DNA of 64,000 nt from positions 19,957-83,956 of the forward strand of contig ML769443.1 in assembly GCA_009733575.1 (NCBI GenBank), in the 5' to 3' direction. Below are positions 13,893 to 57,126 of the stretch, in pieces. Each line of letters begins with the position of its first letter. Position 1 is the first letter of the stretch. Below the pieces are notes generated by a model, which was not told where the DNA came from, searched no databases, and was given only the letters and a program-made list of their open reading frames with translations. Both the position numbers and the translations under genes were made by a program. Source of the stretch: Gymnopus androsaceus JB14. Its lineage: Eukaryota; Basidiomycota; Agaricomycetes; Agaricales; Omphalotaceae.

Positions 13893-14278
13893 CATCAGCA
13901 AAAACTGTTTTGGGCCCAGGAGGATCTAAGGTCACCTAGTCCTCTTAGGCAACCTGAGGCATCCTAGTTGGCCCAGGAAAAAGGGTAAAACTTTGGACAC
14001 CTCAGGTATCCTAGTCATCCTAGGTGTCCTGGGAGATCCTGGGGCATCCTGGGGCATCCTGAGGCATCCTGGGATGGAACTTTTATCCTAGGATGACTCA
14101 GGATGCCCCAGGATGCCCCAGGACATCCCAGGATCTCCCAGGACACCTAGGATGACTAGGATACCTGAGGTGTCCAAAGTTTTACCCTTTTTCCTGGGCC
14201 AACTAGGATGCCTCAGGTTGCCTAAGAGGACTAGGTGACCTTAGATCCTCCTGGGCCCAAAACAGTTTTTTTCTGATG
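13893..14278. mobile_element. Foldback element, 386 bp, CATCAG-ended family, TSD AA
   Basis: Starts CATCAGCAAAAACTG and ends CAGTTTTTTTCTGATG, flanked on both sides by AA (13891-13892 and 14279-14280). The two halves are near-perfect inverted copies of about 180 bp, built from CAGGATGCC / GGCATCCTG-like units, so the single strand would form one long hairpin. There is no coding capacity, so it must be non-autonomous. It sits just upstream of gag inside the Gypsy element. Confidence 0.85.
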
Positions 14279-14511
14279 AATGCAAAATGTGTAAGGGTTG
14301 TGTGAAGAGTGTTCACAAACAGTCTTTGCACTTGTCTTGCTGACTTAACACGGCTCTCCGACTAGGAATGGAGCAATGTTCCGTGTGCTATGACCCCTCT
14401 CCGAAGATTGGTTATCAGTCAAAGGCTTTCAACTACCAGTACTACAAGTTGGACTCAACGTTACTCATGTTGTACTATAGGTGTCTATAAGTCTAATTGG
14501 GTGCAAAGATC

Positions 14512-15149
14512 TGTAAGGCAAAAGGTTGGTAGAACGGTAAGCGTAGTGTGCGGGATGAAAGAATTATGATTGCGTAGTGTGGAATACAAAATGTGAAATC
14601 TTGAGTAGCAAGAGATCACAACAATGTTGAAGAATACTGTCGACCAGTTATCAACAACGAGCAACGATCCATGACAAGTGGAAGAGAGTAGCTTCAATCT
14701 TCTGTCAGCGACTAGTTCCCCACAACACGAGGTACCAGGCATCACGACTTCCGACTTAGGCAAAGACAAGAATGATGAGGAAAAGAGAAGAAGATGATAT
14801 TGAGAACTAGGAGGTATTGACAAGATTGAAGCTAAGGACTAAGCTACAGCTACAACTACTTATATACTAAAGTACAAACCCTAAGCCCTATACCCTATAC
14901 CCTGACCGTGCGGTAACAATGCATGAAATGATAAAAGACAACAAGTAAACAACAATAAGTAATGATAGGTCGATTGTACAAGTATGGACATGTTAGCATG
15001 TGTTATGATCGGAAACGATCATACTCTGATCGACAAAACCTAATTAGTACAGCTGCGCGTCTAACGCGTTTATATGATATACAAGAGTAAATAAAGGGAA
15101 ATGATAAGGAATAATGCCATGTGTCTGATAAGATAAGAACGTTCGTAAC
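14512..15149 (-). repeat. Probable 5' LTR of the Gypsy element
   Basis: On the minus strand this region begins TGTTACGAACG (from 15149), contains a TATA-like GTATATAAG near 14861, and could end in CCTTACA near 14512, before the gag leader. The order LTR-leader-gag fits. The second LTR is not in the window, so the boundaries cannot be checked by comparing copies. Confidence 0.45.
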
Positions 15150-15380
15150 ACTAGGTCTCCTAGGACACCCAGGACACCCAGGACACCTAGGTCTCCCAGG
15201 CTTTCATAAGTCCACCCCCTTATTCCTGGGCTTCTTGAAGGAATCCTGAGGGAACCTGAGGAAACTTGAGGAAGCCTGAGGAAGCCTGAGGAAGCCTGAG
15301 GAAGCCTGAGGAAGCCTGAGGAAGCCTGAGGAAGCCTGAGGAAGCCTGGGAAGCCTGAGGCAACTTGAGGTAACCTAGGG
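15150..15380. repeat. Minisatellite (GAGGAAGCCT)n and CCAGGACAC block
   Basis: About nine near-perfect tandem copies of the decamer GAGGAAGCCT lie between about 15266 and 15358. They are preceded by CCAGGACACCCAGGACA-type repeats. Pure repeat; the open frame on the other strand is an artefact of the period. Confidence 0.85.
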
Positions 15381-15870
15381 ATACTTCTGCTGAGTTATAC
15401 AACCCAAAAAATAATTCTCATACTTTATTATTCAGCTGTATCTTTTTGCTCAATTTCCACATTTATATCACTTAAACCTTATTATCTTATTAAACTCATG
15501 GATTTTTGAATTATTTAAAGTGAACTTATTTTTCGAGACTCATTAATGTTTTACTGGCCTTAACTTATGACTCGGAACACCTCACCTAAGTATTTTTAAG
15601 TCAAGTTCAAGTAGACTAACATATTTATCAAGTTACCTGTTACTTCATGATGAATCTGATTTGACCCCATCAACAGACTTTTAATTGTACGCAGTCTACA
15701 GGCGCCCACGCGGTTCGGCGCTTATTTTGGCGCTTATTTTACGCAATTATATGTTGATAAATTCCAATAATTGGGGTGTCTACTGTTCTTTTAATGATAT
15801 TTATACACATTATAATTCAATGTACTAGTTTATTGGAGCTATTTAGCTTGTAATCCTAGTTCTAGATAAA
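15381..15870. other. AT-rich intergenic; nothing seen
   Basis: No open frames of substance, no repeats matching others in the window. Confidence 0.5.
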
Positions 15871-16203
15871 TCTCAGGCTGTCCCAGGCTTTCCCAGGCTT
15901 ATTCCCAGGCTTCCTCAGGTCTTCTCCATGCAGGCTGCCCCAGGTTCTACCTACTCAGGTTGATACTCAGGTTGTGTTCAGGTTGCACTTAGGTTGTGCT
16001 CAGGTTGTGTTCAGGCTGCAAGAAGGCTCCCTCTGGTGATATCAGGATTTGGGCATATTCCTAGGTAGCCTAAGTCACTCTCAAGTGATATTAGGATTTG
16101 GGCATATTCCTAGGTGGCCTAAGTCACCCAGGCTGCCCAGGTTGCCCAGGTCATATTAGTCTAACCTATAGGCTATCCCAGACCCAGACCATTTTTGCTG
16201 ATG
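15871..16203. repeat. CCAGGCT / CAGGTTGTG low-complexity block with one foldback-family end
   Basis: Degenerate repeats of CCCAGGCT and CAGGTTGTGCT, plus a duplicated segment (TATTAGGATTTGGGCATATT-like, at about 16040 and 16090). It ends at 16203 with CCATTTTTGCTGATG, the same right end as at 12221. No left end found. Confidence 0.55.
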
Positions 16204-17401
16204 AGGATTGTTACAGGAGGGACCATACTGTTTCAGAATTTTTGGGGACAGTTATGAGTGTGTTCTTGGCAGCCGTGACCGTTTACGAGATGGTCTAGAG
16301 CAATAATAACAATCAAAATATATCAAAACTCATTTATATTTGGTCGCTAGTAAAATACAAGTTAGTTACATTTTGCCGAGTCTTGGCTGCAAGCGCGGTA
16401 AAAAACAAGTTAACTTGATTGAATTGAACAAGTTAGCAAAACAAGTTACTTTGCTCACACTCCGCTGGACGTTGATGCCGGATGTTTCTCATTCTGGCAT
16501 CTGACACATGTTTGCAGTCGGTACTATCGATGACCCGGAGGTTTAAAAAATCACAGTAAATTGCTTGCGGTGCTTGCACATCACAGTCTTTCTGCTTGTA
16601 AATTTTAATATAAGGTCTTGTACATACTTCAAAGGCATCTGTCTATTTACATTGAAGACATATTTCAAGGAAAAAATTCAGGATTTTTGAACTTGTGCGA
16701 AATCACACTTTTTTCAGGTTCACATCAGGTTCTTGATTTTTAGAGCCACAAATACTTCACGGGCAAGTATAAGCTTTTAACAGTACCTTTGGTACATGTA
16801 TATAATTAGTACTGCCAGCCCGTTAAAGTGCCCGACGTGTGGTTGTTGTTTCGCGAGCAAAGATGCCAAAAAAGTGCAGTTTCGGACACCGCCAATTGCC
16901 GTTAAGCGCTCTTTTAACTTCTCCGCCAATTTCAAGGGTCTTGTTGGCTCCCTCTGGTATCCTTCCAGACATCTTTTAAAAATCACCAAAGTCAATGAAA
17001 AGACTCTTTATCATCTTAAATATAGTCTCTCAAAATCCGGGAGCCATCCAGTGAGAACTGAAAAAGCTTTTCTATATAGACTTTTTTTTTTTGACTTCCG
17101 GGTCATCGATAGTAGCCTGGAACACACCGGAATCCGATCGAGGTTTCCGAAGAGGTCCGAAGAGGTACGACTCCTGTCTCAGTCTCACTTGCTGCTTTCT
17201 TAGAGTCGCGTTCAGGCCGTGTTCCAACGCGTTCCTTTCCACGTCTAATGACAGAAACAAGGCAGAAAAATGCGGAGTGAAGCTGAGGCAGGGAGGGCGA
17301 AATCTAATGAGATCCAATATTTTTTTGTTCCTGTCAAAGTGGTAAATGTGAGGTATGAGAATTAGTCCGACTGAATCGCATCTTGTTTTCGAACTCCCAT
17401 C
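16204..17401. other. Intergenic; no supported gene
   Basis: Contains a frame at 16796-17203 with a CPTCGCC motif, but it has no splice-consistent extension, no family similarity I can see, and a competing frame on the other strand. The stretch up to the next gene is probably its promoter region. Confidence 0.4.
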
Positions 17402-18436
17402 ATGGACATCACCCCGCAAGACTTGTGTCTTTCTCCTGAAAGCACTTTCGAGCCCGACTCGAAACGACGATGCTGTTTCCGTTTCCCTTTGGCCATCAGG
17501 CTCTTCCCTCGAAACATCGTGCATTTCACCTGTAAAAACATTCGCAAATTATTTCAACTCTCAGTTGGTCCACCTCCTCGATTCCCCATCGAGATAATCC
17601 AACTAATCATCCACGAAGCTTGGGCAATACCACTCACAACCCCCGAACGGGTCCAATTCACCAAATCGTCGCTCCTGGTCAATCTCAGCTGGATGCACCT
17701 GTTCGCTCGTGAATCCTGCATCCATGTACATCTACTCAGTGGTGAACATACCAAATACTGGTACAAGCCCATCACATCTGGTTCACCAAGTGTTTACTCC
17801 ACCATTGCAGGCCTAGATGGTCCCGCCGTCCGTCGTTTATGCCAAACCATTACCTTCCATTGTATAGATCCTCGCGACATCCCCCAACCTCCCGGCGCCA
17901 CGCATCCCACCCACCCCATGTGTACAGCTACGAATCTCATTTCGGGAATCGTACGAGGTGGGGGTTTCGACAACTTTGAGGGATGTGTGACAATGCAGCT
18001 ACCTCATACAGTGAACATTAAGTTGAAGCAGGAGGATATTGAATGGCTCTCCTCTCATGATACATACACACTCTTGACTATGCCCCAGTTCTGGCAGGTC
18101 AAGATAGCACTGAACGGGATATCAGAGCTCTACGATGTGCTTGAAAAGTTGGTGCTGTGGGTAATGCAAAGCCGATGGGAACGTGTCAGCTTAGGGACTG
18201 TTACTACTAATAGAGGCGGAGTACTGGATACTCTATGTGGAAGGGCTTGGGTGAGTACTAATAGTAGTATCTCCAAAGGCTTGCATGATCTACATTTGCT
18301 AACTCCGTTTGTACAGTTCTTTATCAGGTATAATGGTGATGCAGGTAAAGCTTCTAGTTCAGGTTCTGTGACTTTTCTCAATGCTGGAGATTATAATATT
18401 GGTGTCAAGATAGGATTTTTCCCTCCCTGTGAATAG
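17402..18436 (+). CDS. F-box-like hypothetical protein, single exon
   Basis: An unbroken 344-residue frame. Residues about 58-100 (PPRFPIEIIQLIIHEAW... FTKSSLLVNLSWMHLF) resemble the degenerate F-box-like start of the large mushroom F-box family, which links substrates to SCF ubiquitin ligases. The rest is a variable, probably alpha/beta scaffold with no named domain. No intron is needed. The N-terminal about 55 residues are Cys/Arg/Phe-rich and may not all be translated; the ATG at 17402 is simply the first in frame. It looks intact. Confidence 0.65.
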   Translation: MDITPQDLCLSPESTFEPDSKRRCCFRFPLAIRLFPRNIVHFTCKNIRKLFQLSVGPPPRFPIEIIQLIIHEAWAIPLTTPERVQFTKSSLLVNLSWMHLFARESCIHVHLLSGEHTKYWYKPITSGSPSVYSTIAGLDGPAVRRLCQTITFHCIDPRDIPQPPGATHPTHPMCTATNLISGIVRGGGFDNFEGCVTMQLPHTVNIKLKQEDIEWLSSHDTYTLLTMPQFWQVKIALNGISELYDVLEKLVLWVMQSRWERVSLGTVTTNRGGVLDTLCGRAWVSTNSSISKGLHDLHLLTPFVQFFIRYNGDAGKASSSGSVTFLNAGDYNIGVKIGFFPPCE

Positions 18437-19139
18437 CATCCCAGTATTATTTAATATTATCTATTTTCTTTTATATCTACATTAGCCTAGGCTCATCCAT
18501 TCTCCGATTTTGACTTGCACTGAGTCGTAAATTTATGACCATACGGTGACTTTGATTTGCTGCTAGTGATCACATCTCAATTTTGCCTCGCGAACTTTTT
18601 CCAAATACTTTCCCGCCGAAAAAGAATTAGGCCAATGATTAAGGAAGTATATCAATGGCACAGTAAACCCAGTTTAGTGATCCCCTGAACTGAAATAAAA
18701 AATAAATACACTACAGTGCCCGTATATCTGCCTCAGCCTTGACCGGTTCTGGTTCAGGATCTCTGTCAAGATGTTACTACTCAATGTCAACAAATTTTGT
18801 TGAGTCTGGCATAAAATTCTCTCGAGGAATGACAGCGCCAGATCCAGGCGAGAGGAGCAAAGCCGAGAGACGCTAAGGTATGGAAGCAGACGCCGTCGCA
18901 TTCCGTTTGAAAATATTCATCTCCGGAGGTTGTTGTGATTGCTGATAAGGTTAGGGTGACTGAGAAACGAAAGCACCATTTCAAGGTGGAGGAGTTGAGT
19001 TAAAGAAAGCGCGCGCGACGCGACTAGCCTAGATTAGAATGTATAGCGTCTTGGCACTCCCGGTAACTTTTACCTGCGTCGGCGTCTATTCTTGATCTAT
19101 CATCTTGGAAAAAACTACAAACGCTGAGGTTCACGATCC
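18437..19139. other. Intergenic; nothing supported
   Basis: No gene or repeat recognised; short frames only. Confidence 0.45.
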
Positions 19140-20721
19140 TCATCCCTCGCCTTCGGAATCCGATTCCATCATGGGCCAATCAATCCCTTCCTCCCCCGGC
19201 CTGTCCCTCATCCATCTATCCGATATCAAATCGGCCACCTCTGCCGCAGTGGCCCTTTTCTCAATATCATACAGCGTCATCTTGCGCAGGATTCCATCGC
19301 TCGGTCTTTCTCGACCTCCCCCTCGAACGGAAACTGGCACGGGAGCATCAGCCATTTGCCGCTAACCGCCTTACCAGGCTTATTACATCTTGTTGAACAC
19401 CATTTTTCGTCCTCGTCGAACCACTCCCACCTTTCTCCACTAAATTTACTGGCGGATGGAAGATTCAGACGGGTCAGAGGAAGAGTCGGATCCATCAGCG
19501 CTCCCAAACCACATCGCCCACCGCCTCTCCGGGAACTTGCCAAGGTTCAACACCATAACAGCCCTTGAAAACGGCGCAGGCTCGAAAAAGAGAAATTCTG
19601 CCAGAAAGAAGTAGTTTATGAAGTGAGCAAGGGCCCAGACGTCCGATGCAGGGCTGTGTAAATTGTCGAAGAAGAGTTCAGGGGATCTGCAGACCTCGGG
19701 ACAGTGTGATGGTCGTATTCTGGAGCCCGAGCCTGGTACCGCGAGGAATGATTCACCAAAGTCGCATGTTTTAACATGCAGCGATGCAGGATCTGCAAAA
19801 CACATTTCGATAAAGGAGTATGAGTCGAGGCAGGGTAATACGAGGTATTGAGGGATGTGAGGATCAGATGCAGGCTTCAAAGACAAGTCGGAAGCAGGAG
19901 CGTTAGCTTTCCAGGCAATAGGAATATGCTGACGCTGCTTTCTGAGCATCTTTTCGATATGTTCTTGGATGGGCGAGGAGGATATGATCGTCGGGCATAA
20001 AGGAGAACGTTTCGGATGTGAAGATCTGAGAAATTGGTATGGTTAGAGGAAGATGAAGAGTCCAACTGCACAAGCTTTACCGACCTCCGTGTACGATGTC
20101 GTGCCTATGGAGATACCTCAAGCCACATGCAACCTGCGCAGCCAAGCGCTTCGCAATACCTGTAGGAGCAGGATCCTCCTTGTACATATGAAACAGAGCA
20201 TCTTGTAGATTCGGGCCCAGGATCTCCGTTGCGATACACAGATGTGTTCCGTTTGGTCCTTGGCGAGTGAATATACATCGAATATTTGGATGACATGGTT
20301 GTTCCCCTCATCATCATCATCCGGCGACCGATTGGATTGCGCACGGACACGCTGGAGGTATTCAACGACGGCAATCTCGTCCGACACACGAGATTTAGAA
20401 TGTTCGAGGTCAGCGACACAGATTTTCAATGCAGCTTAGCGGCCGATTTGAGAGTCGTAAACCAGCCAAACGACGGCGTACGTGCCGTGCCCAAGCTTAT
20501 TTACGACAGTGTAGCGTCCGTTGTGAAACTTGTCGTCTAGGTGGACAGGATGATAGCCACCAGGACGGTATCCGTAGGTGCTTTCTATGTTCATGTTCAA
20601 GAAGTGAACGGCTTTAGGCGCCTGACCTAAATTTGAATCGAATCGAATTACCTCTCAGAAAACCATCTGCTGGATCGCCGCCCGATGTAGAGACAGCACT
20701 CCGACAGTCCGACCATTTCAT
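19140..20721 (-). pseudogene. SRPK-like protein kinase, disrupted
   Basis: Reading the minus strand from 20721 the kinase elements appear in order: PGGYHPVHLDDKF leader, glycine-rich loop (KLGHGTYAVVWLVYD), catalytic lysine (AALKICVADLEHSKS), hinge region, catalytic loop HGDLHIRNVLL (HGD in place of HRD, usual in this fungal SRPK-like family; split by an intron near 20040-20095), metal-binding CDFGESFLA, and SPASDVWALAHFINYF. The tail ends MMESDSEGEG. Breaks: TAA at 20438-20436 just before the catalytic lysine, a frameshift near 20238 and further frame changes near 19490 and 19290. Such kinases phosphorylate SR-rich splicing factors, but this copy cannot make a full product. Confidence 0.85.
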
Positions 20722-20875
20722 GATTCCATTCCCCAGCCTGATGTGTGTCGATCCGCTCTGAAGTTCTCTTGTGCTGAAGCCTTGTTTAATAAGTGAGTGG
20801 TGTATAACGTATCAAAGAGTCTACAAAATTATAAGTAAAATATCGTACATATGGTATAAAAAGCAACACGTCATC

Positions 20876-22470
20876 TCAGTCTATTGGAGCCGGAACGAAA
20901 GAGTCCAAATCTTCCCCTTCTTCTTCATCGTCCGTGAGAACGTACGTACTCGTGCCTGCGTCGGTAGTCCGTTTCAGTATCTATTCTTGATCTATCATCG
21001 GGACTTGGGACAGTAGGTATGGGTTTAACGTCGACGCGTGTGCCATTATTTTCGTTGCTGTATGTTAGGAAATCTTTCACGGTTACTGGACGAGGTTTGA
21101 AGTCCTGTAGAGTAGGTTGTCAGTCTTGGGTAACCTGGGAAGACGAGAGACGAACTTTTAATTGTTCTTCGGTCAAGACTTCCCCATTAGAGAGGTTCTC
21201 CCGCATGTATTCTCGGACTGGCACCATCGCTGCAGTGCGACACATTTCCTTTAGATCTGAGCCGGAGAGACCTTCCGAGACCCGAGCAAGAATTTCGAGT
21301 GAAAGCTCGGGCGACAGAGTGATGTCGTGGAGCATCTAAGGAAGATATCAGGCGAGTAGTAGGAAGACTAGCGATAATACTTACCAATGTAAGGATCTTT
21401 AATCGTTGGTCAAAGTCAGGTAAAGTAACAGCGAATCGCTTCGGTAATCGACGGAAGATGGCAGAGTCGATGTCGTTGGGTCTATTTGTAGCACCGAGAA
21501 CGAGTATACGATCTGTTGATGATAAGAGACCATCCCAGAGTCTAACGAATGTTCAGCAATAGTCCCAGAGTTGAAAAGTAAGTCGCGCACGTCATAAACT
21601 CGGCTTTCATCATAGCCGTGACCTCATGGTCTCCAGAAGATCTCTCCCGCAGAAACGAGTCGATTTCATCAATGAAGATAATGCTAGGTTGAGTTTTCCT
21701 AGCCAGGCTGAAGAGACCCGCAACAAGCTTGTTGGATTCTCCGAACCATTTGTTCGTGAGTACGGAGGCGGCGATGTTGATGAATGTGGCTCCGGATTCT
21801 TTTGCGAGGGCTTTGGCAAGCATGGTTTTTCCGCACCCAGGGAGGTCCGTAGAGGAGGACTCCTTTGGGTGCCCCGAGGAGGGACGAAGAGGACGTGAAG
21901 AGAGTAGGATATAAAAGGGGATAGATTATGGATTCGCGGAGGGATGCTATTATGGGATCTAGTCCTCCGATGTCTGTATAGTATTAGATTGGCTGTAATA
22001 TGAGGAGCAAGTGACTGACCGGAAAATCTGACTGGGATGTCGTCTGGGTGGATCACCTCATTGGCGACGATGCCTGGGACATGTAAGATAGAATTCCGCA
22101 AGGAAAAGACCCTACGCACTTTCGTATTCGTCCAATTTGAGTTCGGTATGACCCAGTCTTTTCAAAGCCTCCAGTTGCTTCGCGTTTACATTTCTGGGCT
22201 TATCATTTCCAGTGAGAGATCCCTATGGCCCATCGCATTGTGTAATACAACGCTGCCTAGCGAAATGCTCAGCAAGTAGTATGCAGGCATTAAAGTAGAG
22301 AGACAAACTTGAGAAGCAACGAGCAGAACGACTAGAAGGAGTGTAAGCAGGAGGAAGACATTAGGTCTTGGAAGGACACACTTTCAATAGCCAGATGCCT
22401 AGTGCCATGGTTAGAAATGGCCATTGAGAAAAGCACAGTGAAAGTCGGGAGTAAAATATATAACTTTCCT
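20876..22470 (-). pseudogene. Msp1/ATAD1-like mitochondrial outer-membrane AAA ATPase, frameshifted in Walker A
   Basis: From the 5' end on the minus strand: a hydrophobic segment (VFLLLTLLLVVLLVA, near 22350) suited to the N-terminal membrane anchor, a linker (AKQLEALKRLGHTELKLDEY), then the Msp1 AAA domain ([34 protein letters not shown] as Walker [39 protein letters not shown]) and a DFKPRPVTVKDF tail with an acidic end. Msp1 pulls mislocalised tail-anchored proteins out of the outer membrane. Several GT-AG introns are consistent. The one clear lesion is an extra base inside Walker A (GPPG-CGKT, at about 21839), which shifts the frame exactly in the ATP-binding loop. The last intron (about 30 bp) is also abnormally short. 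A sequencing error cannot be ruled out. Confidence 0.85.
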
Positions 22471-22626
22471 AGCGCTTGCTACGATAAGATAAGATCTCCA
22501 CAGCTTTGGCGCTTCGCTCAACACAACCATCTTCATCTACCGCTGCAAAATTGAAGTGAGAGCTACTTGAAGATAAGTAGAACTGATATACATTGTTCCA
22601 AAACTTATTTTTGCAGATCCACGAAG
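22471..22626. promoter_or_regulatory. Short divergent promoter region
   Basis: About 150 bp separating the Msp1-like gene (minus) from the F-box gene (plus). No clear motif identified. Confidence 0.25.
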
Positions 22627-26264: not shown

Positions 26265-26370
26265 ATCTTTGAAGGGAAAGTACTCGACGGAGTCGGATCG
26301 GATTCATCACATTTATCGCCTATCAATTACAAGTGATCCCGGGCTACATCCGCGTAGCCTCCGACCTGCG

Positions 26371-29399: not shown

Positions 29400-29603
29400 G
29401 CGATTCATATTCTGTACAGCTTTCACTGCCTGCCTTTCCGCCCACTTCACTCCCCTCGTTTTCTCAATAGAATGCTTCTGCCTGCCATGTACAGTTATTG
29501 AGAGGCTGAGACGCTAAAGCACCGGCATTGTATTAGTGAAACCTGATGCAAGCAGTGCATTTCAGCCTCGTACTAATTTTAATTACGCTGACCTCCATAT
29601 AAC

Positions 29604-29990
29604 GTCTCTGTCGATTAGTGGTCAAATCATTAGGTTGTGTGCATGTATTGTGCATTCCACGAAGCCGGGAGCTCGAATTTCCATGGACAATAAATTGTTG
29701 TGTTTGTCCGTTGTTTTTATTGCATCTTGGAACTGAACTAACGGTTTTGGACCTTACAGATTGATGAAAGGGAGTTGTTAGCTTTCGATATCGATAAAGA
29801 ATGACTGCTGTAGACGGCCAAAAAGATCATCTGGGAACTCTGGGAACGCTTGCCACGACTTTCGATTTTAGTTTCATCTCATATTTAACGGACACCTCCG
29901 ATTCAGAATCCGAGCGGTTCCGTTTTTTCAAAAGCTCTCTAGGGCACTAGTTACACAAACTTGGGATTATCTATCGCGACCGAAACTAAC
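29604..29990 (+). repeat. tRNA-derived SINE-like element, left palindrome arm
   Basis: Head 29604-29689 resembles a degenerate tRNA gene: GTCTCTG...CATGGAC ends, A-box-like TCGATTAGTGG, B-box-like GAGCTCGAATT, and a GTG triplet in a plausible anticodon position (His-like). The body (about 300 bp) recurs at 30004-30300 inverted and at 37251-37570. In the copy near 37600 the 3' half of the tRNA is better preserved (GAGCTCGAATCCCCCAGGGA). Confidence 0.6.
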
Positions 29991-30003
29991 AAGGACTCTT
30001 GTA

Positions 30004-30386
30004 GTTTCGGTCCGATAGATAATCCCAAGTTTGTGTAACTAGTAGCCCTAGAGAGCTTTTGAAAAAACGGAACCGCTCGGATTCTGAATCGGAGGTGTCC
30101 GTTAAATATGAGATGAAACTAAAATCGAAAGTCGTGGCAGCGTTCCCAGAGTTCCCAGATGATCTTTTTGGCCGTCTACAGCAGTCATTCTTTATCGATA
30201 TCGAAAGCTAACAACTCCCTTTCATCAATCTGTAAGGTCCAAAACCGTTAGTTCAGTTCCAAGATGCAATAAAAACAACGGACAAACACAACAATTTATT
30301 GTCCATGGGGAAATTCGAGCTCCCGGCTTCGTGGAATGCACAATACATGCCACAACCTAATGATTTGACCACTAATCGACAGAGAC
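30004..30386 (-). repeat. tRNA-derived SINE-like element, right palindrome arm
   Basis: Inverted copy of the element at 29604; tRNA-like head at 30300-30386 on the minus strand. Confidence 0.6.
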
Positions 30387-30599
30387 GTTATATGGAGTCA
30401 GCGTAATTAAAATTAGTACGAGGCTGAAATGCACTGCTTGCATCAGGTTTCACTAATACAATGCCGGTGCTTTAGCGTCTCAGCCTCTCAATACTGTACA
30501 TGGCAGGCAGAAGCATTCTATTGAGAAAACAGAGGGAGTGAGTGGGCGGAAAGGGCAGGCAGTGAAAGCTGTACATATGAATCGCCACATTGGTAAACG

Positions 30600-31100
30600 T
30601 GAGAAGACTGGCCTTGTCCCATTGCTCGATTGGTACCTTGGGTTCCTCCTGATGGTCAAAGAAAAACTTCAAGGGGTGGATTATGAATTTGGGAATTGAT
30701 ACTTACATTTGATCGTGGTACTGGAATTTTGGAAGATTGTTTTAATTCGAGCGTATGTGGTCTTCGCTATAACTCCTGATCCTGTCGAGGATTGGGAAAT
30801 ATGGTTTGATGTGCTACAGCTGCATTTTTCGGACAGACGTTTGCGTTCAAATATCGAATAGTGTGCGCTTGAAATTGAGATAATTTCCTTGTGGTTGTAA
30901 TGGTTAGTGTTGCCGCGGTGCGGTGATGAGATATGATGTCGGGAAGTAGCGAGAGAAGGGTCAGCGTCGATATTGCGCAGCATATCCATAGGCTCATCTG
31001 TTATCTTGTTTGCCTCTGCTTGAGAGTCGAGTCGAGCCTCCGCATTGACCTCAGGTGGTTTTGGGCAGTTGTTGGGGTACATGATTCCAGGATATGAATA
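30600..31100 (-). CDS. Possible two-exon gene fragment, unrecognised
   Basis: On the minus strand an exon (31100 to about 30713) reads PEVNAEARLDSQAEANKITDE...FQNSSTTIK. It splices by a GT-AG intron (about 30712-30670) into KFFFDHQEEPKVPIEQWD... The 5' end is cut by the foldback element at 31101, and the 3' end runs into the palindrome. No family recognised. It is probably a disrupted gene. Confidence 0.35.
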
Positions 31101-31388
31101 CATCAGCAAAACCTGGGTGAACTGGATAGCACTTGATAGTGCTATCCAGCACTCATAGCACTCATAGCACCCATAGCAAGGTCCCCATCTATCCAGAGCT
31201 ATGAGCTGCTATGGGCTGCTATGGATTGCTATAGAGCATGACATCTGTCAACGGGCAATATAATTTGTGAAGTCCATAGTAACTCATAGCTACCCATAGC
31301 AGTTCATAGCAGTTCATAGTTCTATGGCTGCTATGACTTGCTATGGCTTGCTATAACAGCTATGGCAATTATCCAGGTTTTGCTGATG
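31101..31388. mobile_element. Foldback element, 288 bp, CATCAG-ended family, TSD TA
   Basis: The terminal inverted repeats are perfect over 16 bp: CATCAGCAAAACCTGG and CCAGGTTTTGCTGATG. They are flanked by TA on both sides (31099-31100, 31389-31390). The interior is made of short CATAGCA / TGCTATGG units in opposite orientations in the two halves. No coding capacity. Confidence 0.88.
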
Positions 31389-32160
31389 TAATGGAAACAT
31401 GGAATGGAGAGGAAATGGAAACAAAGGAGGGAAGGAGTCACATACGCACAGTGCCGACTGGTGGCTGTTTGTGCTGGTAGTTTGTTGTAACAGATGAGGT
31501 AGAGAACGGGACCATATGGATCAATATCAACCACCTGACAGAGCCAGGTTGCCCGGGATCCCGGGAGTCCAACTCCGAGTCCAAGTCCAAAATCTAAGTC
31601 TGAGTCCAAGTTTCTATATAGCTCTAAATATCATATAATATATCTAGTATGAGCACCTATGAGCACCCTAGAGTTATATATGGCTCTAGCGAGTTCCGTG
31701 ATAAGCTAGCAAGGCATGCTTATCAGAGGATAAGCTGAGCACAGCAAGAGACTTGGCATCTAGGTGCTCAGTCGTCTTGATCCTGACTCTCATTGCCGCC
31801 AATTTTACATTGGTTTTTTGAGTCTTTCCTTGGTGAGCCTCTATTGCTCAGTTCCTTGCATCACCCAATGCAATCAAGACAAGCCCAGAGGGGATGCTGG
31901 CCATGTCAGGGCTACATGTAGCCCTCATGAAGGAACCTGTTGTTGCAGGTCTCGTTGGGCTCACTAGCCCGATAAGAGAATCTTTTTGATTCTGGACTCC
32001 AGTCCTTCTTTGTTTCCCACCGAATTGTGGGAGCTTCCTCGGCATAAGGTCTCGTTCTCTTTGCAAGCTCTATTCTCACCGCTGGTTGGTGGTTTTTCAC
32101 TTTATTTTATTTTATTATTTTGTTTTATCTTTATTTTAATTTTTAATTTTAATTAATTAA
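31389..32160. repeat. Repeat-rich non-coding sequence; part recurs at 32965-33100
   Basis: 31695-31830 (AAGCTAGCAAGGCATGCTTA, TAAGCTGAGC, CGCCAATTTTACATTGGTTT) recurs almost unchanged at 32978-33100. It contains a GCTTATC...GATAAGC hairpin. 31565-31610 has a (GGACTT)n-like tract that recurs inverted near 33945-33985. 32100-32160 is (TTTTA)/(TTAA)-rich. Confidence 0.6.
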
Positions 32161-46795: not shown

Positions 46796-47301
46796 CACTA
46801 GGCTTGCACCAAACAATAACGGTCAAAATCATTAGCGAAATTATTGTTGTGATTAATTACCTTTTTCAGTATGAATTTCGGTTGAAAAAGACCATATTTT
46901 TCCTATGAAAAACACATTGAGAAAAAATCAGAATTTTGTTCGGGAATGTTCTATAATTTCATGTGTAATGAGTCATGTATTTCGGTCGAAAAACACAAAA
47001 AATTTCACAACCCTAATTCAATTCAATGGTCTTCAGCGTTTATTTTGGCTGATTTTTAGCGCTCATCATTTTGAATTGAATTAGGGTTGTGAAATTTTTT
47101 GTGTTTTTCAAGTGAAATACATGACTCATTACACGTGAAATTATAGAACATTCCCAAACGAAATTCTGATTCTTTCTTAATGTGTTTTTCATAGGAAAAA
47201 TATGGTCTTTTTCAACTGAAATTCATACTGAAAAAGGTAATTAATCACAACAATAATTTCACTAATGATTTCAACTGTTATTGTTTGGTGCAGGCCTAGT
47301 G
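46796..47301. mobile_element. CACTA-type foldback element, 506 bp, TSD ACT
   Basis: The ends are CACTAGGCTTGCACCAAACA and the inverse TGTTTGGTGCAGGCCTAGTG, flanked on both sides by ACT (46793-46795, 47302-47304). A CACTA terminus with a 3-bp target duplication is diagnostic of the EnSpm/CACTA superfamily. The two halves are about 235-bp inverted copies around a short centre. No coding capacity. A truncated relative is at 37693. Confidence 0.88.
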
Positions 47302-47341
47302 ACTCCAATAAAACTTTTTTATTTCACTTCTTTAATCTTCG

Positions 47342-50300
47342 ATGCATGAACGCCGCTCTGGAAATCACAAAATCCCGTCAGGTGTTCAACCAGAAACACC
47401 AGTTTTCAAATTGTTGGCTCCCGCAGCTTCTTTCGCCAATGGAGAAAAACAGAGAAGCAGAGGAATGCCAGGGAGTGGTGATGCTGAGATGAATGGTGGT
47501 CATAAAATAACAGCTGCTTTTTTGGAAAGCTTGGTACCTCCTAAACGTGCTCCAAAATATCCCCCACCTCTGTCAATTCCTCAGATACCAGTGACACCTT
47601 CCTATGCTTCTTCATATGCCCCTACAATGCCAAGGCATCCTGCCACACCCTTGCTACCATCTGCCACCTTTCTGAGTCCTGTAACACCATCAACCTTCAT
47701 CGGTTCTAATGCTGATAATGCAAATCAATTCACACCAGATATCACTGCAAAGTTCTCCCACTTGCTCCCACCACTTTGCCCAGCTAAGATGTTGGATTCT
47801 CACCGCATTGAGAGGGCATTGGAAGTCCTACTTGATGAACTTCATTATTCCTTGGTTGCTGAATTCATCTCCGTTTATCTACAACAAATTCCTCGCGACA
47901 GTTCTGAATCTTTTGGTAAACGTCACTGAGCCACTGTGAAGATGTTTCTGCAGGGCCGAGCCAAAGTCAAGCCTGTGGAGATTATACAGCAGCTGTATAA
48001 TCATTGATACAGCTACCCATTGTACAAATCTAAGCAGAAGGAGGAGCAAGTATCTCTTTGCTTTCATCCATCCTTTCCTCCGGAAGAAATCAAATATGCT
48101 CAACCCTCAGTCTCCACTTGGGCAACCCAGTTGGTTGGCAAGCATGTCGAAAAGTCAATGAGAGATCTCAGCTGCAATCCTGAAATTCCCAACTCACATT
48201 CAGACTGTGTTCCTGTACATCTGCCAGCAGCTGCTAATGAACGTAGCAAGGCCAAGGGTGTTTGTACAGTCACCAAAGATGACTTGATGTCATTTTGGTT
48301 TTCTGATTGCACAAAGCTATTCAAAATGCGCTCACCGCTAGTCTGGTATCTGATGGAATGTATGGCAGCACCAAAGAAGAATGGTGTGCTTGTTGTTCAA
48401 AGAAGGAGAAATCCAGAAATTGTGAGTCTTTTACAAGGTTAATGACTTTTATATGCTTACTCCAGTCTATACAGATACAGACTAGTGCCATCCCATTGTT
48501 CGTTCTCTCTGGAAACCAATATGCCAATGGGTATATGGCCATGCACATGGGGATTTGGCATATCGCATGCGGCTCTCATGTTGATGTCAAGCGTGCATAT
48601 AGTCATTTGGCAGGTAGTGTCCATGAGACCACTGCTAGACGCGCTCTTGAGACTATGGCTGATGATTCCTTCGAACCGAGGTCAGGACTGGTGAGAAGTG
48701 CTACCAGGTTCTATACCGATATGTCCTTGACAACATCCAGGAGTTTCTCCAAGTTTGGGAAGGAGGTGTTGGGCTTGAGAACCGCATGATTTGTGGTTGT
48801 GCTTGTACTGCAATTGGTCTCGAGGACTGTGAACCGGATGCTTTTGACTTTGTTGATTGCTTCACACGCATTCTCAAGAATGAACATGCCGAACTTACCG
48901 TCTCAAAGCTCCATGAAGATATTGATTGGGATCACATCAGAGGTGTTCAGTCATTACATGTCCTTCGTGCACTCTGCAGCTTTGTCCCATCACTCAAGGT
49001 CTTAGTAAAATCAATCTCTGAAGCCTTTTGAATCAAGTTTGCTATTCATCAGATGCGCGAGGGTCAAAAAACCAAAGTGGTACCTCTTGGGTGCAATGCA
49101 AAGCATGAGATTGAAATATCTGGAATGATGCGTGCTCTGCTTGACTTCTTTAGACAGGCTGGTCTTTCACCCAAGTATGCTGCTAGTCTCATTGCCTGGG
49201 TTGGGGGCGATGGTGGTTCTGTCTTGGCTATAGATGCTGCCAAGAAGTATTCGGCAACTATGTATGACCCAGAAGATGTTGAGTGTGATTACAAGAATCT
49301 CTACAATGTAATGTCGACACTGGGTATCTGGCATACACAGTTGACAATGCAAAACTCAATTGCTGCAAATCACTATGGGCCTGTAGTTACCTGTGATCCA
49401 TCTTCCCTTTCTCGCAGTGGAGCTTGCGCTGGATTCAAATGGCCAATGAACTTCAAAGATTGCGGTAATTACTACCCTCTTTCCCGGAGTATGACTGCAA
49501 TTTGGGAGACCCATGTACTTGATTGCTGGCGGTAGATCCTCATTTTTGAATCAACGGTTTGACAAACTAATGATAATTTTAGCCTTGAGTTAGAATTCAA
49601 TAATTACAAGAAAATAAATCCGTATTTCGATGCTCTTGCAAACGAGGCCAAACTTCCAACCTTTGAATGGTTTCTTGCAAAGGCTGAGTGGATTGTAGAT
49701 TGCTACATGACTCCAGATGCATACGAGCAAGCACTTTCTGAAACACTCAATAATTCCGCTCCCGACCATCTGAAATTCCCAATTGGCAAACCACATTCAT
49801 CTTGTGGCACTATATCTACCTCACAGAGCAAAGGAAATGATGAACCAACTACTAATATGGCTATTTCCAAGGATCCAGAGGTTGAAGGAGATGCTGAAGA
49901 CAAACCTCCTACACAATCCTCCGAGTCTAAGAAAAAGAAACCGGCCACACATGTTGAAGAAAAGGGATTTACTGGGGATCGAGTACTTGCAAACACTATC
50001 TTATTCATGATGGAGTACTCCTGGTGGATCGAGGCCACATACGCAATACCAGAAGGTGATATAGGGTGGGTATAGGAAATTATGAAGGTCACTCTACCTT
50101 TTGTTTTTGGAGTTCATTTACTAACAGTATTTATCTAGATATGGATATTTGTTGCTGCCGTTGCCGGTAACACCAACTACGTCAACCTGCTCCTTGAGAT
50201 GTACTGCTTGTTCCAATACAAGAGCAGTCAAAATCTCAAGGATGCTATATGGAATAATTGGTTGGTTAATGTCACCGGTGAGCTTGGCAAATGGATTCCC

Positions 50301-51134
50301 AATGATCTGCTTCAAGAGCACTATAACTGATGGCTTGAAGACATGGTGAAGAAGAGTGGAAAAAATTTTGATGATAAATTTCTACGCAAAGTAATTTCAC
50401 CAAATGTCGAGTTTTTCCTTTGACTCAAAGAAGAACTCGAGGCATCGCTTGAGCTCTACAAGCATTCAAAATCTCATACTTCTCATCACCTTTGCGCTGA
50501 ATTCCAGCAGCTTCTTACTTTCAATGGCAAAAAAATGATGCATCTTTTCCATTCTCGTTGCTCTATGGGACATGCAGTGGTGCCCCTTCTTAACAATGGT
50601 TCTCAAAAGTTGACAGAAGGCACACTTAATACTCATCTTGGATGTCACACAGACCGAGCTGCAGTACTTCAATCTATTGAAGATAAACGAAAAGTGGTGA
50701 AGGGCAGTACTTTGATTCTAGTCCAACTTTTTGTACCCATTTCCTGATCGCCATCACCTATTCACATCGACCCTCCTACGTTCCTCATCCCTGAACTCTC
50801 CCAGTCTCCATCACCCATTCTTCATGAGCCACCAACATCCTCACCGAGTGGAAGTATTGATGAAGATGACATAATATCTGTAGAGGGAGCTGCTTCCGAT
50901 GAGGAGATCATAGAAAAAGATGATGAAATCAATTTATTGGAGGAAAGGAACAATCATTCACGTTTGGATCCTGGACCTGAGCTAATGCCCAGTATTGATC
51001 CAAACTCTGGGAGGCTGATTACGGAGTGGGAAGATGATGTAGAGGAATTACTTGAAGGAGATGATACGCTGGATTCTGGAGATGCAAGCAAGATAAGTGA
51101 GTTTGAGCAGGATTCTGATATAGACTTGCAGTAG
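47342..51134 (+). pseudogene. DUF6589-type mobile-element protein, inactivated mainly by TGA codons
   Basis: The translation follows the large DUF6589 protein family, very abundant in mushroom genomes: ARPSISSW-like AQPSVSTWATQLVG, APKKNGVLVVQRRR, ANGYMAMHMGIWHIACGSHV, MREGQKTKVVPLGCNAKHE, LGIWHTQLTMQNSIAANHYG, VLDCWR, LANTILFMMEYSWWIEATYA, LLLEMYCLFQYKSSQNLKDA, ending in an acidic tail. Introns at 48422-48474, 49532-49582 and 50088-50138 splice in phase. The frame is interrupted by TGA at 47927, 48005, 49029, 50328, 50421 and 50745, TAG at 50073, and one indel near 48650-48690. The role of DUF6589 is not established. The end lies 3 bp from the convergent helicase gene. Confidence 0.8.
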
Positions 51135-51137
51135 TTT

Positions 51138-53377
51138 TTAGTACTTACATTGATTCTTGGACTGTAATCGAGTTGAACGCCGTTGTTTGCCTTGTGGAAG
51201 TACTCCATTCTCATCAGGTGCACTCTGAGCATAGCTTCGATAAGATTTGGGGGCTGGAGTAGCGTAGAAAGACTTGGCCTCAGCTAGGGACTGTTGAGGT
51301 TGGCGGGGTTGACATTTAGCATGTGGCTGATTTTCTGCGGCCACTAATGCGGCGCGTTTAAGGGGAAGCGTAACAGGTAGTTCAACATCAAGATCAGAAA
51401 ACGAGTCAGAATCAGATACAACTTTCTTGGCCTTTTTCAATCTCGATTTACAAGACAATTTAATAGAGCTCTGAAGTGAGGAAATGAGATTGAATAGAGG
51501 TGACTCCTGTGATTCAATGAATAACCATTCATTCAATGCTAGAATAATGTTCAGATCAGCGCGAGACTTGATCTTCAAAAGATTGGTTGCAAGAGCCTCC
51601 CGGAGAGGGTTGGGGAAATATAGAGACCGAGGTCAATAGCGATGAGGAGCGACAAGCCGTTCTTCAGCGTAGAGTTGTGTTTCATACACAAGAAAAGCCA
51701 TCCCAACCACCTCCAGTTCCTTTTCCTTCAACTTGTCCACCTTCTTCCGTGGTTTGCGCTTTTTTGTTGTGATAGTCGGCATAATGAATGGAGGGAGTGT
51801 CATTTCATCAGTAGAAGGAGGGAAATGATTTTCGGGGATATGATAGTGTGTGCAGCAGAGATCACAGGGTACAAGGCGCTCAGCCTGTATGCAGTCCATA
51901 CGTGACAATTCGAGAGGAGGGTTGTCATAGATAATGTTCTCACAAGCGACTTGGCAGACCGTTTCAGCTAGGAAGACAACCTTGGCTGGATCAAGGGGGT
52001 TTTTTGTTTCCTTTTTTGTCTTCGTCGTCTGTTTAACTTTTGAGATTGCAGCAACAGAAACTTCACCTGAAGCTACAAGATAATCAGTATAAATGAAAAG
52101 CGTAAGTAATTTACACACCTTCAACAATCTTCCTAACCTTATTAAGCTCCGTCGTAGTTGTGAAGATGATTCTATGTGCAATAACACCTTCCTTCCGCCC
52201 AGCATGTTCAGCATCCTGCTTCCCATTATCTTGAGTATCGGCAGTCCCTACAGCGATACTATCTCGAAGCTCCTCCACGTGGATACCAAGCGAGAGTGCC
52301 TTGGTCGCAATCACCACTTGACATTGCGGATCAGTATCTATAAGTTCAATAGTCTTCTTGTTATACTTCTCCGAGGCTAGAGAGTTGTACATGTGTATTC
52401 GGCATAGAGGATTCGAAGATGCAGGCGTGAGGTTGAACAAAAACATAAAGATGCAGTATCCAAGATCTATTGTTTGAACGTGAATGACAGTTTTGCATTG
52501 TTGGTTAAGATAGGGAATAATTTGTGGGAATTCAGTACCACCGATGGCAGATGTGAGAGTATGTAGAATTATTTTCGTGTTTGAATGTTCATTTGAGCAA
52601 CAAATGAGATGGAAGCGCGAGCCTGAAAATCCAAGAGTCAAGCAAACAGAAAGGAAAGGAGGTCCAGGCTGCATAGTAGCAGTCATAGAGAAGACTGAGA
52701 TAGTAGAGGGAAAACGGCCACAAAAGAAAGTGCCAATATGTCAAAATAAAGGTCGGAATGATAAGCCCCATTCATTGATAACATGGCCTTCTTCCGCGCA
52801 TGCAAAGATGATATTTTGGCGGAATAGAGTTGAGTTCGAGATGAGATACCACTCCCGTTCGCATAGATGTTCAGGATTGATGCACACAATGCGATACTGG
52901 CAGGAAGTGATTTCTTTGACAATGTCAATGCCAGCTCTGCGTTTGAGAGAAAGATTTTCCGACGTGTAGGCAAATCCATTGATTCCTAGGTCCTCTTTGA
53001 GGCGCTTTACCTGAAATAACATTGTCAGCTATAAAACACTGTAGACATTGAAGTGCACGCACTATATTATTTGCGAGACCTTTTGTTGGTGTGACTACAA
53101 CTCCAATTGGATCCAAGCGAATAGGAACGTTGAACAAAGGATATGAGTCTGCATTCTGAGAGATTTCAAGGTGTAAAAGAATAGGAATACCAAAGAGCGC
53201 AGACTTGCCGCCTCCCATCGCGTCGATGGCAAAGACATCCTCGAGATTGAGAATTTTTGGTATGCAGATAAGCTGTAGTTTGCGTAAACCATTTATCCAC
53301 TTTGGAACAAGCCTGGTGACAATAGAATTAACGATTTTTACGCCTTCATTTGACGTGAATGAAAATCGAGATGACAT
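51138..53377 (-). pseudogene. RecQ-like superfamily 2 DNA helicase of the same element
   Basis: On the minus strand from ATG 53377: Walker A IDAMGGGKSALFGIPI, motif Ia VVTPTKGLANNIV, an intron, the DEAH-box equivalent AEEGHVINEWGLSFRPLF (EEGH in place of DE-A-H), motif III-like SMTATMQPGP, motif V VIATKALSLGIHVEEL, and a decayed motif VI (QDAEHAGRKEG, usual Q-R-x-G-R-x-G-R). A Lys-rich linker (KKRKPRKKVDKLKEKE) and a C-terminal helix follow. One in-frame TGA at 52743-52741 splits motif II from motif III. RecQ helicases unwind DNA 3' to 5'; here the gene belongs to a mobile cluster. A splice near 51630-51580 probably joins the last exon, ending at 51138. Confidence 0.78.
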
Positions 53378-53641
53378 TCAGAAGTATAGAATACAAAAGG
53401 TAACTGTGGCACCCTACGGACTCTTACGGACCGAGCGGTGGCAATGCAAAGCTTACTAATACTTTATCTAGAGCTGCAACGGCTGCACGGCTACTATAGG
53501 ACTAGCTCCCACCCATATATGGCAAGAGACGCGGCACACCCAACCAGAGCCAAGGCTCCAACCAGAAGCGGATCTCGCCCAAACCCCACCAGAGTCAAGG
53601 CAACGTTAGTTACCAAGAAATATCTTTAGTATTAATACATG
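53378..53641. other. Spacer between helicase 5' end and recombinase 3' end
   Basis: About 260 bp, unique, C-rich toward 53600. Probably holds the helicase promoter on the minus strand. Confidence 0.35.
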
Positions 53642-54850
53642 TTAATGTATTTGGACAACAAGAAATAAGCTAATTGTCAAGAGACGATATTTCGGAGCCA
53701 GTAATACATGTGTTAAGTAGCGAATCAGAGATTTTAAAAGCTTTTGGAAAGCAGCAACGGTTTTGCGTAAAGTATTGATCTTGTTCTGATTATAAGCTTT
53801 GGAGATGTGAATGGGGATAACCTCTTCTAAACGGCGCCAATAGAGCAAGAATGCGAGTGAGGTCCATCCTCCAGTAGCAGCAACAACCTCGGGTTTGACT
53901 CTGGCAAGTAAAAGTGCAACGGCTCCACCAATATGGAAACTATGGCCCAATACATGTTTCATTGCAGCCTTTTCCCAAACATCATAGCAAAACACCAGAA
54001 AGACATTTTTCACCATGTGCCTGGGTTGGCCTTTTTCGTCTACATCGCCAAATAGCAAGTACCCTTCTGGGACACCAGCGTTGACCCTGAGATGTTGCTC
54101 AAGGGCTGTAACACCACAGAGCTCGTTGGGGCAGCCAGTAACTACCGCGTTGACGCCTTCCTCTTTGGCGGTCTTCGTCCAAGGTATCCTGAAATTAGCT
54201 GATTTTGCCGCATTGCGATGCTGTTGGAAACAGAGGTCTGCAGAGCAGTGGGAAACATGGTATTCTGTAGAGAATTTGGAAGCAGAAGGGACTGTAATTT
54301 CACCTATAAGTAAGTTGGAGTTAATATCAACAAATCAGAGTAAAAATCAAGTACCTAGGTGGCGACAAGACCAAAAGGCTGTCAGAGCACACACCCATAT
54401 CGCGCAATGGAAGGGAATATTAAAGTTGAGAGTGCAGCGTAGCGCGAACAAATGTGCCACTGTAATAGGGTGTCGAGGGCATCTTTTGTGAGCAGTACCT
54501 TCCACGTTGGCACCCCGACAAGTGAAATGAATTCTGCAAGAGTCAGCTGGCCAAGTGGCACCTTTGAGTTCATGCCAGGTGCGTAGACCTGCAAGCCAAT
54601 TCTTGACCATTCCACCCGAAACTTTTCCCATGTGGAAGCCCATGAATCCAATAATCAGTACGTCGGATGCGGGCATTTGATCAACTTGGGGATCTTCATA
54701 AAGTCACAATATTGGGACCAATGAAGGAATCCTGCGGCGTAAGTAGTCATAGTTGAAGGAGCTAGACCAGCAAGCATTACTGCATTGCCAGCTTTTATAA
54801 CCTCCTTGGGGTATTTGGCAAGCTCCTCGGATTTCTTCTCCAGAGAAAAG
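53642..54850 (-). pseudogene. Tyrosine recombinase of the same element, one frameshift and a catalytic Arg-to-His change
   Basis: Minus strand. The SAM-like DNA-binding half (LAGLAPSTMTTYAAGFLHW, GGMVKNWLAGLRTWHELKGA, HPITVAHLFALR) leads to the first catalytic arginine in FWSCRHLG. An intron (about 54354-54304) joins in phase to EITVPSASKFS, RIPWTKTAKEEG (lysine), GHSFHIGGAVALLL (second box; the invariant Arg is His), AATGGWTSLAFLLYWRRLEE with the nucleophile Tyr. A one-base loss near 54690 breaks the frame. The domain order is that of mushroom phage-integrase-like recombinases. The H-x-x-R to H-x-x-H change is a CGT-to-CAT type transition. It differs in sequence from the recombinase at 34690. 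Confidence 0.82.
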
Positions 54851-55636
54851 GGGGTCTCCCAGGATGCGAGTTGCTCTGCTGCTCTGACTCTTGGTCGTAG
54901 GGAATTGCTAGCCAGCTCTCGTCCCTTGTGTGGTTTCCTTGGTGCTGCGGTAGGGGTAGCTTGGGCTGTGCTAGTCGGATGAGGAGTTGAGTGGAAAAGG
55001 GAGAATGAGGATGTTGGGGTGGAGTAGGGATTGGTCTTGCAGGTTTCAATCTTGGTTTCAAGGTTGTAGGTGTAGAAGAGAAGAGGGTCGAAGGTGGGTA
55101 ATTAGAATTATGGTAATATTTTGAATTAGAAAGGTGCTATTACAAATGCCACTGTGGTACCACCATGGTGCAGATAAGAGCAAACTGCAGCTTAATAACT
55201 GTACAAAGGAGAAATGCCTGCAGCAGAACCACAGCATCCACCTAGTCAGTGATGCACTGAACCTACTAAAGAGATTAGACTTACCTGAACACCTACCAAT
55301 GTCAGAGTGCAACTGTAATGCATGCAAGGTAGACCAGAGGAAAGGCTGCAAGAACCCACACAAATGTGCTGAGGCTGCATCCAAACAACTACGCCAGCTC
55401 CAAAAGCACTGGAATCCACTTGTGACCCCCCCACATGCTCATCATCTTGATGAGATAAATCTGGAAGAGGGAGATGTGCTATTTGATGCAAATTTTGAAA
55501 TGGATAATATAGCAGATGGCTTCCGCATATTCACCAAACTGGATGACAGGACTGAAGCATATGAACATCCCAATGACCAAGTTCACATAGAAGATGAGCA
55601 GACAGTAGAGGTGTGGTGTAATGGAACATCACAACA

Positions 55637-55900
55637 CATCAGCAAACCCTGTATTTTGCATTTTAATTGCAACAGCAATACATAAAATTCCCAGCACTCC
55701 CAGAGTCCCCAGCGCTTGCCAGTGCTGTCAAAAATATAAAATCGTATGACATTTTATTTATTTCCAAATAAGGCAATTTTGAGGCCTCTGGGAGCTCTGG
55801 CCAGCGCCGGCCGGACCATCTGAGTGCTGGAGCACTGGAGCTCTGGAGACACTGTCCAGCACTTGCAAGAGCTGGCCACATCATACATGTTTTGCTGATG
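55637..55900. mobile_element. Foldback element, 264 bp, CATCAG-ended family, TSD CA
   Basis: Ends CATCAGCAAACCCTGTA and TACATGTTTTGCTGATG, flanked by CA (55635-55636, 55901-55902). The interior is CTGGAG/CCAGCACT-type repeats in opposing orientation plus an AT-rich patch. It interrupts the LINE frame. Confidence 0.88.
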
Positions 55901-56948
55901 CAGCCAGGCACAGCAGAAGCAAGAGCTGGAGGTGGAGCATGGTACTCACCCTTTGATGATCGGAATGCTGCAATTGCAGTCCCTAAGGATGAAAGGCAAT
56001 CTGCACCCACAGCTGCAGCAATTGCAGTTTTATATGCTATTTTAAATGCTCCTACCAACAAACCATTAAGATGTATCATTACAAATGAGCAAGTACTCAA
56101 GAATATAACAGAACAACTCACTGGCTGGAATGACCGGGGCTTCCATAATGTGAAGGATGCAAGAGTGTATAAGGCTCTCCTGAGCCACCTCCGAGCCCAT
56201 GGAGCACCAACTATATTCTGCAAAGTGGACAAGAAAGGGAATCTAGATGCATACAGAGGAAGTATGAGCCTAGCAGAACAGGCCTCTCTGGGCATTGACC
56301 AATCCCTAGCCTATAAGACAATTAAAGGGCAAAATAAGGCAAAACCACGTCCAGCCACAGAGCATACTATTGGCAAGGTGCAACATGACCTCCATGTAGA
56401 AAGCCATGTCACACCAATGGCAGAGCACCTATGGAAATCAATCCGTGACCCTGAGTTACCCCAAAGAATAAGGGACTTCCTGTGGAAGTCAATGCATGAT
56501 GCCCATCGTGTAGGCAGATTTTGGAAACATATACCTGAATGCGAGGAAAGGATGATGTGTGCGCACTGTAATGAGGTTGAAAGCCTTGAGCATATCCTCC
56601 TAGAGTGTGATAGACCTTGGAGGAGGCTAATATGGGAAATGGCTAAAAGCCTGTGGCCTAAGACACCTGACCATGGCTCCTGGAAGGAGCCTAATCTAGG
56701 AATCATACTGGGTACAAATCTCCTTGAATTCAAGGATGCTAAGGGTAAATCAGCACCTGGGATTAAAAGACTCTACAAAATACTGATTACTGAATCAGCC
56801 CACTTGATCTGGAAGCTGCATTGTGAAGCTGTAATAGACCATGAAAATGAGGATGTTCCTGACAAGGAAACTTATAACAGATTATGCCAGGTCCTGAGCC
56901 AGAGATTAGCAAGGGACCAGAGCCTTACCTACAAACCAAGGTGGAAGA

Positions 56949-57126
56949 CATCAGCAAAACCTGTACCATCACAATACATTTCTTTCATCTCTGGAGCAAG
57001 GATAGTAATTCCAGAGATCTCCAGAGACCTCCAGAGACATCTGAAAAAGTTTGACAGCTTTTTGACAGCTGTCAGAGCTCTGGAGATCTCTGGAGACCTC
57101 TGGAGACCAACCAGGTTTTGCTGATG
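56949..57126. mobile_element. Foldback element, 178 bp, CATCAG-ended family, TSD GA
   Basis: Ends CATCAGCAAAACCTG and CAGGTTTTGCTGATG, flanked by GA (56947-56948, 57127-57128). The interior is CTCCAGAGA / TCTCTGGAG repeats in opposing orientation. It interrupts the same LINE frame. Confidence 0.88.

Follow-up and report, generated by a model that had tools for sequence, protein, structure and literature searches.

The window, a stretch of 64,000 bp of the Gymnopus androsaceus JB14 genome (C61:19957-83956; genome size 83.27 Mb, 934 contigs), contains, with near certainty, one copy from each of four many-copy MITE families that share their extreme ends. The four copies are listed in Table 1 together with the dinucleotides duplicated at their borders. 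A sequence-only reading of the window had described these copies at the same positions and with the same flanks, all of which we found in place, and had assigned them to a single foldback family. The explanation favored here, which we consider probable, is that they represent four distinct MITE families with shared ends and a 2-bp target duplication, mobilized in trans by a transposase that is most likely of the PlavakaB type. MITEs are a known kind of element, as are PlavakaB-type ends and duplications, and the families described here are further members of this known kind.

Table 1. Copies with CATCAGCAAAA-type or related ends in the window.
Feature	Positions	Strand	Target duplication (positions)	Characteristics
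MITE copy, family 1	13893..14278	.	AA (13891-13892 and 14279-14280)	386 bp; near-perfect hairpin; CCCAGGA/AGGATGCC units
MITE copy, family 2	31101..31388	.	TA (31099-31100 and 31389-31390)	288 bp; CATAGCA units
MITE copy, family 3	55637..55900	.	CA (55635-55636 and 55901-55902)	264 bp; sits inside a LINE-like element
MITE copy, family 4	56949..57126	.	GA (56947-56948 and 57127-57128)	178 bp; CTCTGGAGA units
Truncated fifth-family copy	15151..16203	.		Related end CATCAGCAAAAATGGTCTGG; left terminus (at least about 50 bp) missing
One-ended copy	12000..12221	.		Right end CATCAGCAAAAATGCTCTGG; CCCAGGCTA-type array; left limit uncertain

Common ends and family-specific interiors

The exact 11-mer CATCAGCAAAA is present at six of the eight ends of the four copies, and the two remaining ends (the right end of the family 1 copy and the left end of the family 3 copy) each deviate from it by one mismatch, in agreement with the earlier description of one set of ends. 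The next four bases are CCTG at either end of the copies of families 2 and 4 and variants of this motif in those of families 3 and 1. When up to one mismatch was allowed, the 11-mer was found 12 times in the window compared to 1.97 expected occurrences. In the whole genome, the exact 13-mer CATCAGCAAAACC occurs 2982 times (1517 + 1465), compared to two occurrences (0 + 2) of the reversed pattern. A chance similarity of short ends and flanks, with no family behind it, would be in line with the shortness of the 11-mer and the roughly two near matches expected in the window; in view of the genome-wide counts and of the duplications and empty sites described below, the probability of this explanation is practically zero. 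With 2982 exact 13-base ends, PlavakaB-type ends and duplications, and clean empty sites, the elements form a very large MITE group within one genome. In one locus (L001; C1:53130 and 53145), two CATCAGCAAAACCTG ends were found directly in tandem, 15 bp apart.

Searches of the genome revealed at least 39 other near-full-length copies of family 1 with 93-99% identity to the window copy, at least 39 of family 2 (92-99%), and at least 26 of family 3 (85-95%) plus two partial ones. For family 4, at least five other full-length copies with 97-98% identity were found, along with weaker relatives at 86% and 72% and two more interiors at 96% in the fetched loci (see below). These copy numbers are lower bounds, with 40 candidates scored per search (of 459, 752 and 667). 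Occurring in many short copies with a shared interior, inverted ends and a target duplication, the elements qualify as MITEs. The earlier view that only the ends are conserved was not borne out: every copy in the window shares its interior with relatives elsewhere in the genome. Shared interiors appeared to be lacking because only one stretch of the genome had been viewed, and caution is warranted in general, as a single window can make several families resemble one family without a shared interior. The sequence-only reading had itself named one interior common to genome-wide copies as an outcome that would speak against it. In spirit this is what was observed, as interiors are shared within families, but there are several such interiors and not one. 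An assembly artefact was rejected, as the copies are spread over many contigs.

In family 1, 36 of the 40 copies scored were 385-386, 394-396 or 404-405 bp long, and these length classes fit the gain or loss of one unit of about 10 bp. All 40 copies scored also match the opposite strand (90-94%), indicating that the hairpin of this family (z = -39.4 compared to 100 shuffles) is inherited. The interiors of all four copies had been described as palindromic. This holds true for families 1, 2 and 4, whose interiors reached self-complementarity scores of 579, 81 and 79, compared to 42, 40 and 43, respectively, for the largest of 100 shuffles, but the interior of family 3 shows no palindrome beyond chance (32, largest shuffle 34). 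Likewise, the claim that the interiors are mutually unrelated was correct for the three pairs involving family 1, which were at chance level. The pairs of family 2 with family 3 and of family 2 with family 4 were borderline, each score being reached by one of 100 shuffles, and the interiors of families 3 and 4 were weakly similar (score 34; highest shuffle score 24).

Target duplication and empty sites

The target duplication was analyzed in 51 sequences, comprising the window and the loci L001-L050, many of which overlap and which were fetched on account of the ends that they contain. Two ends were paired if each had no more than one mismatch, if they were separated by 61-1299 bp and if no further end intervened; 38 pairs resulted. 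The 2-bp flanks were identical in 25 of these pairs, compared to a mean of 3.84 and a maximum of 13 in the shuffles, none of which (0 of 2000) reached 25. This result confirmed the 2-bp duplication proposed in the sequence-only reading and excluded the objection raised there that the flanking dinucleotides might match no better than by chance. When the four original copies were omitted, the duplication was present in 21 of 34 pairs. Flank matches of 1 bp and 3 bp were at chance level (3 bp: 1 of 38), and matches of 4 bp were found in two of 38 pairs (shuffle mean 0.21; 37 of 2000 shuffles reached two). Of the 13 pairs without a 2-bp duplication, seven had two exact ends, and in the other six one end or both deviated by a mismatch.

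The 25 duplications had the sequences CA (seven), TA (five), GA (four), TT (three), AA (two), and AT, TG, AC and AG (one each). Insertion is therefore not specific for TA, as stated previously. This variety distinguishes the elements from those of the Tc1/mariner type, whose duplication is always TA, and from PHISTA elements, for which the same is given by Kojima (2025; PMC12730594). The earlier statement that the 3-bp pattern of CACTA elements does not apply was also correct: unlike in strict CACTA/EnSpm elements, the ends read CATCAG and not CACTA, and the duplication comprises 2 bp and not 3 bp.

Empty sites showed directly that the elements insert with a duplication of 2 bp. The copies of families 3 and 4 lie in the same host element, which looks LINE-like and contains an open frame (55772-57122) whose match to zf-RVT (19.8 bits) did not reach the Pfam cut-off (27.5 bits). 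Positions 55100-57600 of the window were used as query for paralogs. For the insertion of the family 4 copy, the matches of the two flanks overlapped by exactly 2 bp in all five paralogs (C259, C230, C122, C674, and C755). For that of the family 3 copy, C259 and C230 each gave an overlap of 2 bp; in C674 the match extended by one more base, giving 3 bp. Pooled for both window insertions, seven of eight comparisons gave an overlap of 2 bp and one an overlap of 3 bp. At position 56299, the LINE-like copy of the window lacks about 68 bp that are present in five paralogs spanning this point.

Subterminal arms and relations between the families

Comparison of the arms (up to 100 bp) in the sample of 38 elements sorted them into groups whose partners are largely constant. 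The combination of types 0 and 1 was seen in 12 of 12 elements (278-726 bp in length), that of types 4 and 6 in five elements, and that of types 5 and 7 in four, and type 3 was present at both ends of three elements. Four elements had one unmatched arm, two had neither arm matched, and each arm of the family 1 window copy matched only its own counterpart. Arm type 2 was combined with type 8 (four elements), with type 9 (three elements, including the window copy of family 4) and with an unmatched arm (one element); this variety of partners might possibly be the consequence of an occasional replacement or exchange of arms.

The family 2 window copy has longer relatives of 613-706 bp, with which it shares the left 135-150 bp (81-89% identity) and parts of the right approximately 115 bp (73-86%), whereas the middle differs. 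From these common arms we infer that the 288-bp elements of family 2 probably arose from a longer element by internal deletion. The most extreme case is an element of 44 bp that consists of two CATCAGCAAAA ends only and has AT on both sides (L037:1516-1559).

The sequence-only reading proposed strand switching or foldback repair; in such a process, only the ends would be needed for transposition and a new palindromic arm would be built at or near each transposition event. Such a process could explain the mostly unrelated interiors of the window copies, the near-perfect hairpin of family 1, the variable partners of arm type 2 (two types and an unmatched arm), and the existence of the 44-bp element made up of ends. 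It is at odds with interiors that are each common to many copies, with a family 1 palindrome inherited by every one of the 40 copies scored, with fixed arm pairs in the larger groups of the sample and with the non-palindromic interior of family 3. We regard it as very improbable; as a general process it is largely refuted, and a rare role in the founding of new families is possible. The elements resemble Foldback (FB) of Drosophila, which is characterized by long inverted arms of short repeats, other ends and longer target duplications, with respect to their long inverted arms of short repeats, but differ from it in that the arms are family-specific and inherited.

In the explanation that we prefer, the MITE families share one terminal inverted repeat, CATCAGCAAAA(CCTG), which is 11-15 bp long. 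Each family would have been founded once and then copied with its own subterminal arms of about 100 bp and its own middle, and in at least one case the founding event would probably have been the internal deletion of a longer element.

Candidate transposase and other elements of the window

In the available part of a recent study (Kojima, 2025; PMC12730594), PlavakaB, which belongs to the CACTA-related CMCT clade, is described to have the termini 5'-CATCA..TGATG-3' and duplications of 2 or 3 bp. For PlavakaA, a 2-bp duplication and TGT..ACA termini are given there, and for EnSpm families CAC..GTG ends and 3 bp. Both PlavakaB features were found here, namely the CATCA..TGATG termini and the 2-bp duplication in 25 of 38 pairs, and the host carries transposases of this group: the Pfam family PF18759 (Plavaka) had 150 matches in the genome, all of them above the curated cut-off (one only when its neighbors were included), and none in 14 control genomes. 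Since matches to one Plavaka transposase of the genome covered a range of 26-100% identity, several Plavaka lineages are likely to be present. Unlike PlavakaB, the elements described here are short and non-coding, and no autonomous partner with the same ends was found among the loci examined. The proposal of a Plavaka-like CACTA relative, made in the sequence-only reading, consequently fits with respect to ends and duplication, but not with respect to a partner gene. Most likely, a transposase of the PlavakaB lineage supplied in trans would recognize the shared ends, perhaps together with the short subterminal repeat arrays, and would cut and insert at these ends with a 2-bp stagger; shortened elements lacking the transposase gene would have been amplified as separate MITE families. 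The link to Plavaka is the weaker part of this explanation.

A long element with the same ends and a transposase gene, as suggested earlier, was not detected in the loci examined, and the loci and end lists contained no Plavaka gene with CATCAGCAAAA ends on its two sides. At the one Plavaka locus that was read (C321), CATCAGCAAAA ends are missing. Of the 16 inverted-repeat pairs in this stretch, one resembles TGT..ACA and surrounds the gene, and it is not accompanied by a matching duplication. Linkage between ends and Plavaka genes was analyzed for 223 of about 3200 known ends (81 of 81, 42 of 42, and 100 of 234 from three patterns), with 91 Plavaka loci merged by hand as reference and with 100 ends of the 13-mer listing excluded. 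Two of the 223 ends pointed to a Plavaka locus within 10 kb, compared to 2.44 expected by chance, and four lay near such a locus but on its wrong side; in a sample of this size, a few autonomous partners may have been missed. For one of the two pointing ends (C129), no right end was found in the 1.5 kb read, and for the other one (C85), an opposite end lies between the end and the Plavaka locus. A DNA search with an 821-bp relative, in which 40 of 208 candidates were scored, gave MITE-like matches and, by eye, no end pair around a Plavaka locus. When 49 open frames, two of them from L051 and the others representing 47 of the 49 detected in L031-L050, were scanned against Pfam, one Plavaka match was present among the families listed (25 of 34), presumably that of the deliberately added C321 frame. 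A text search of the literature for CATCAGCAAAA returned no title concerning such an element.

A sequence of 2444 bp in L044 (4981-7424; C3:868480-870923) was considered as a larger element and rejected, as its match pattern appears to correspond to a MITE of about 630 bp with two nested insertions. One nested insertion in L044 contains an open frame in which a P-loop ATPase/helicase-like motif scored below the Pfam cut-offs. Flanks almost identical to those in L044 recur at C3:851883 (left) and C3:864378 (right), which suggests a duplicated segment.

A transposase outside of Plavaka, belonging to another CMCT lineage such as EnSpm or to an unrecognized group and acting on CA..TG ends with 2-bp duplications, would agree with the failure to find a Plavaka gene with these ends and with the chance-level linkage in the part of the ends analyzed. 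CMCT lineages are also described to have mostly CA..TG ends and duplications of 2-5 bp. However, CATCA..TGATG ends with 2 or 3 bp are the combination given for PlavakaB, and CAC..GTG with 3 bp that for EnSpm (PMC12730594). We consider this alternative unlikely and retain a PlavakaB-lineage transposase as the preferred candidate.

The elements are similar to CACTA/EnSpm elements and the MITEs derived from that group in having CA..TG ends and subterminal repeat arrays. In CACTA elements, such arrays are protein-binding sites. The arrays of short units in the MITEs resemble them, and a role in protein binding is putative. As the near-invariant end of 11-15 bp is paired repeatedly with arrays of different short motifs, it might be speculated that the transposase reads the end, that the array is read by a DNA-binding protein which is specific to the family and evolves fast, and that new families are occasionally founded when one arm is replaced, as the varied partners of arm type 2 might indicate, a scenario that we judge quite unlikely. 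As the related families combine the same end with subterminal arrays that differ, they represent a natural experiment on which sequences such a transposase needs. The word "subterminal" is absent from the main text of PMC12730594. In Marasmius oreades, according to the accessible part of a report (PMC9674265), terminal inverted repeats are common to several hAT families of the genome, with the non-autonomous families presumed to depend on the transposase of a single autonomous one. This situation is similar to that of the families described here, except that it concerns the hAT superfamily.

The ends at 12221 and 16203 of the window belong to a branch with CATCAGCAAAAATGSTCTGG ends, of which 113 + 121 are present in the genome. 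The copy with the end at 16203 corresponds to a member of roughly 1 kb (compare C164:39466-40537). In another copy of this fifth family (C130:141410-141990), a 36-bp unit is repeated many times in tandem, which shows local expansion of an array inside one element. Besides the families with 2-bp duplications, the window contains a CACTA-type MITE at 46796-47301, a CACTA..TAGTG hairpin; its arms of about 230 bp have 94% complementarity, and its target duplication is ACT (3 bp). A large inverted repeat composed of several adjoining pieces is located at 29413-30575. Its arms of about 560 bp flank a center of about 36 bp and are 100% complementary except for the outermost 83 bp, where complementarity is 88%.
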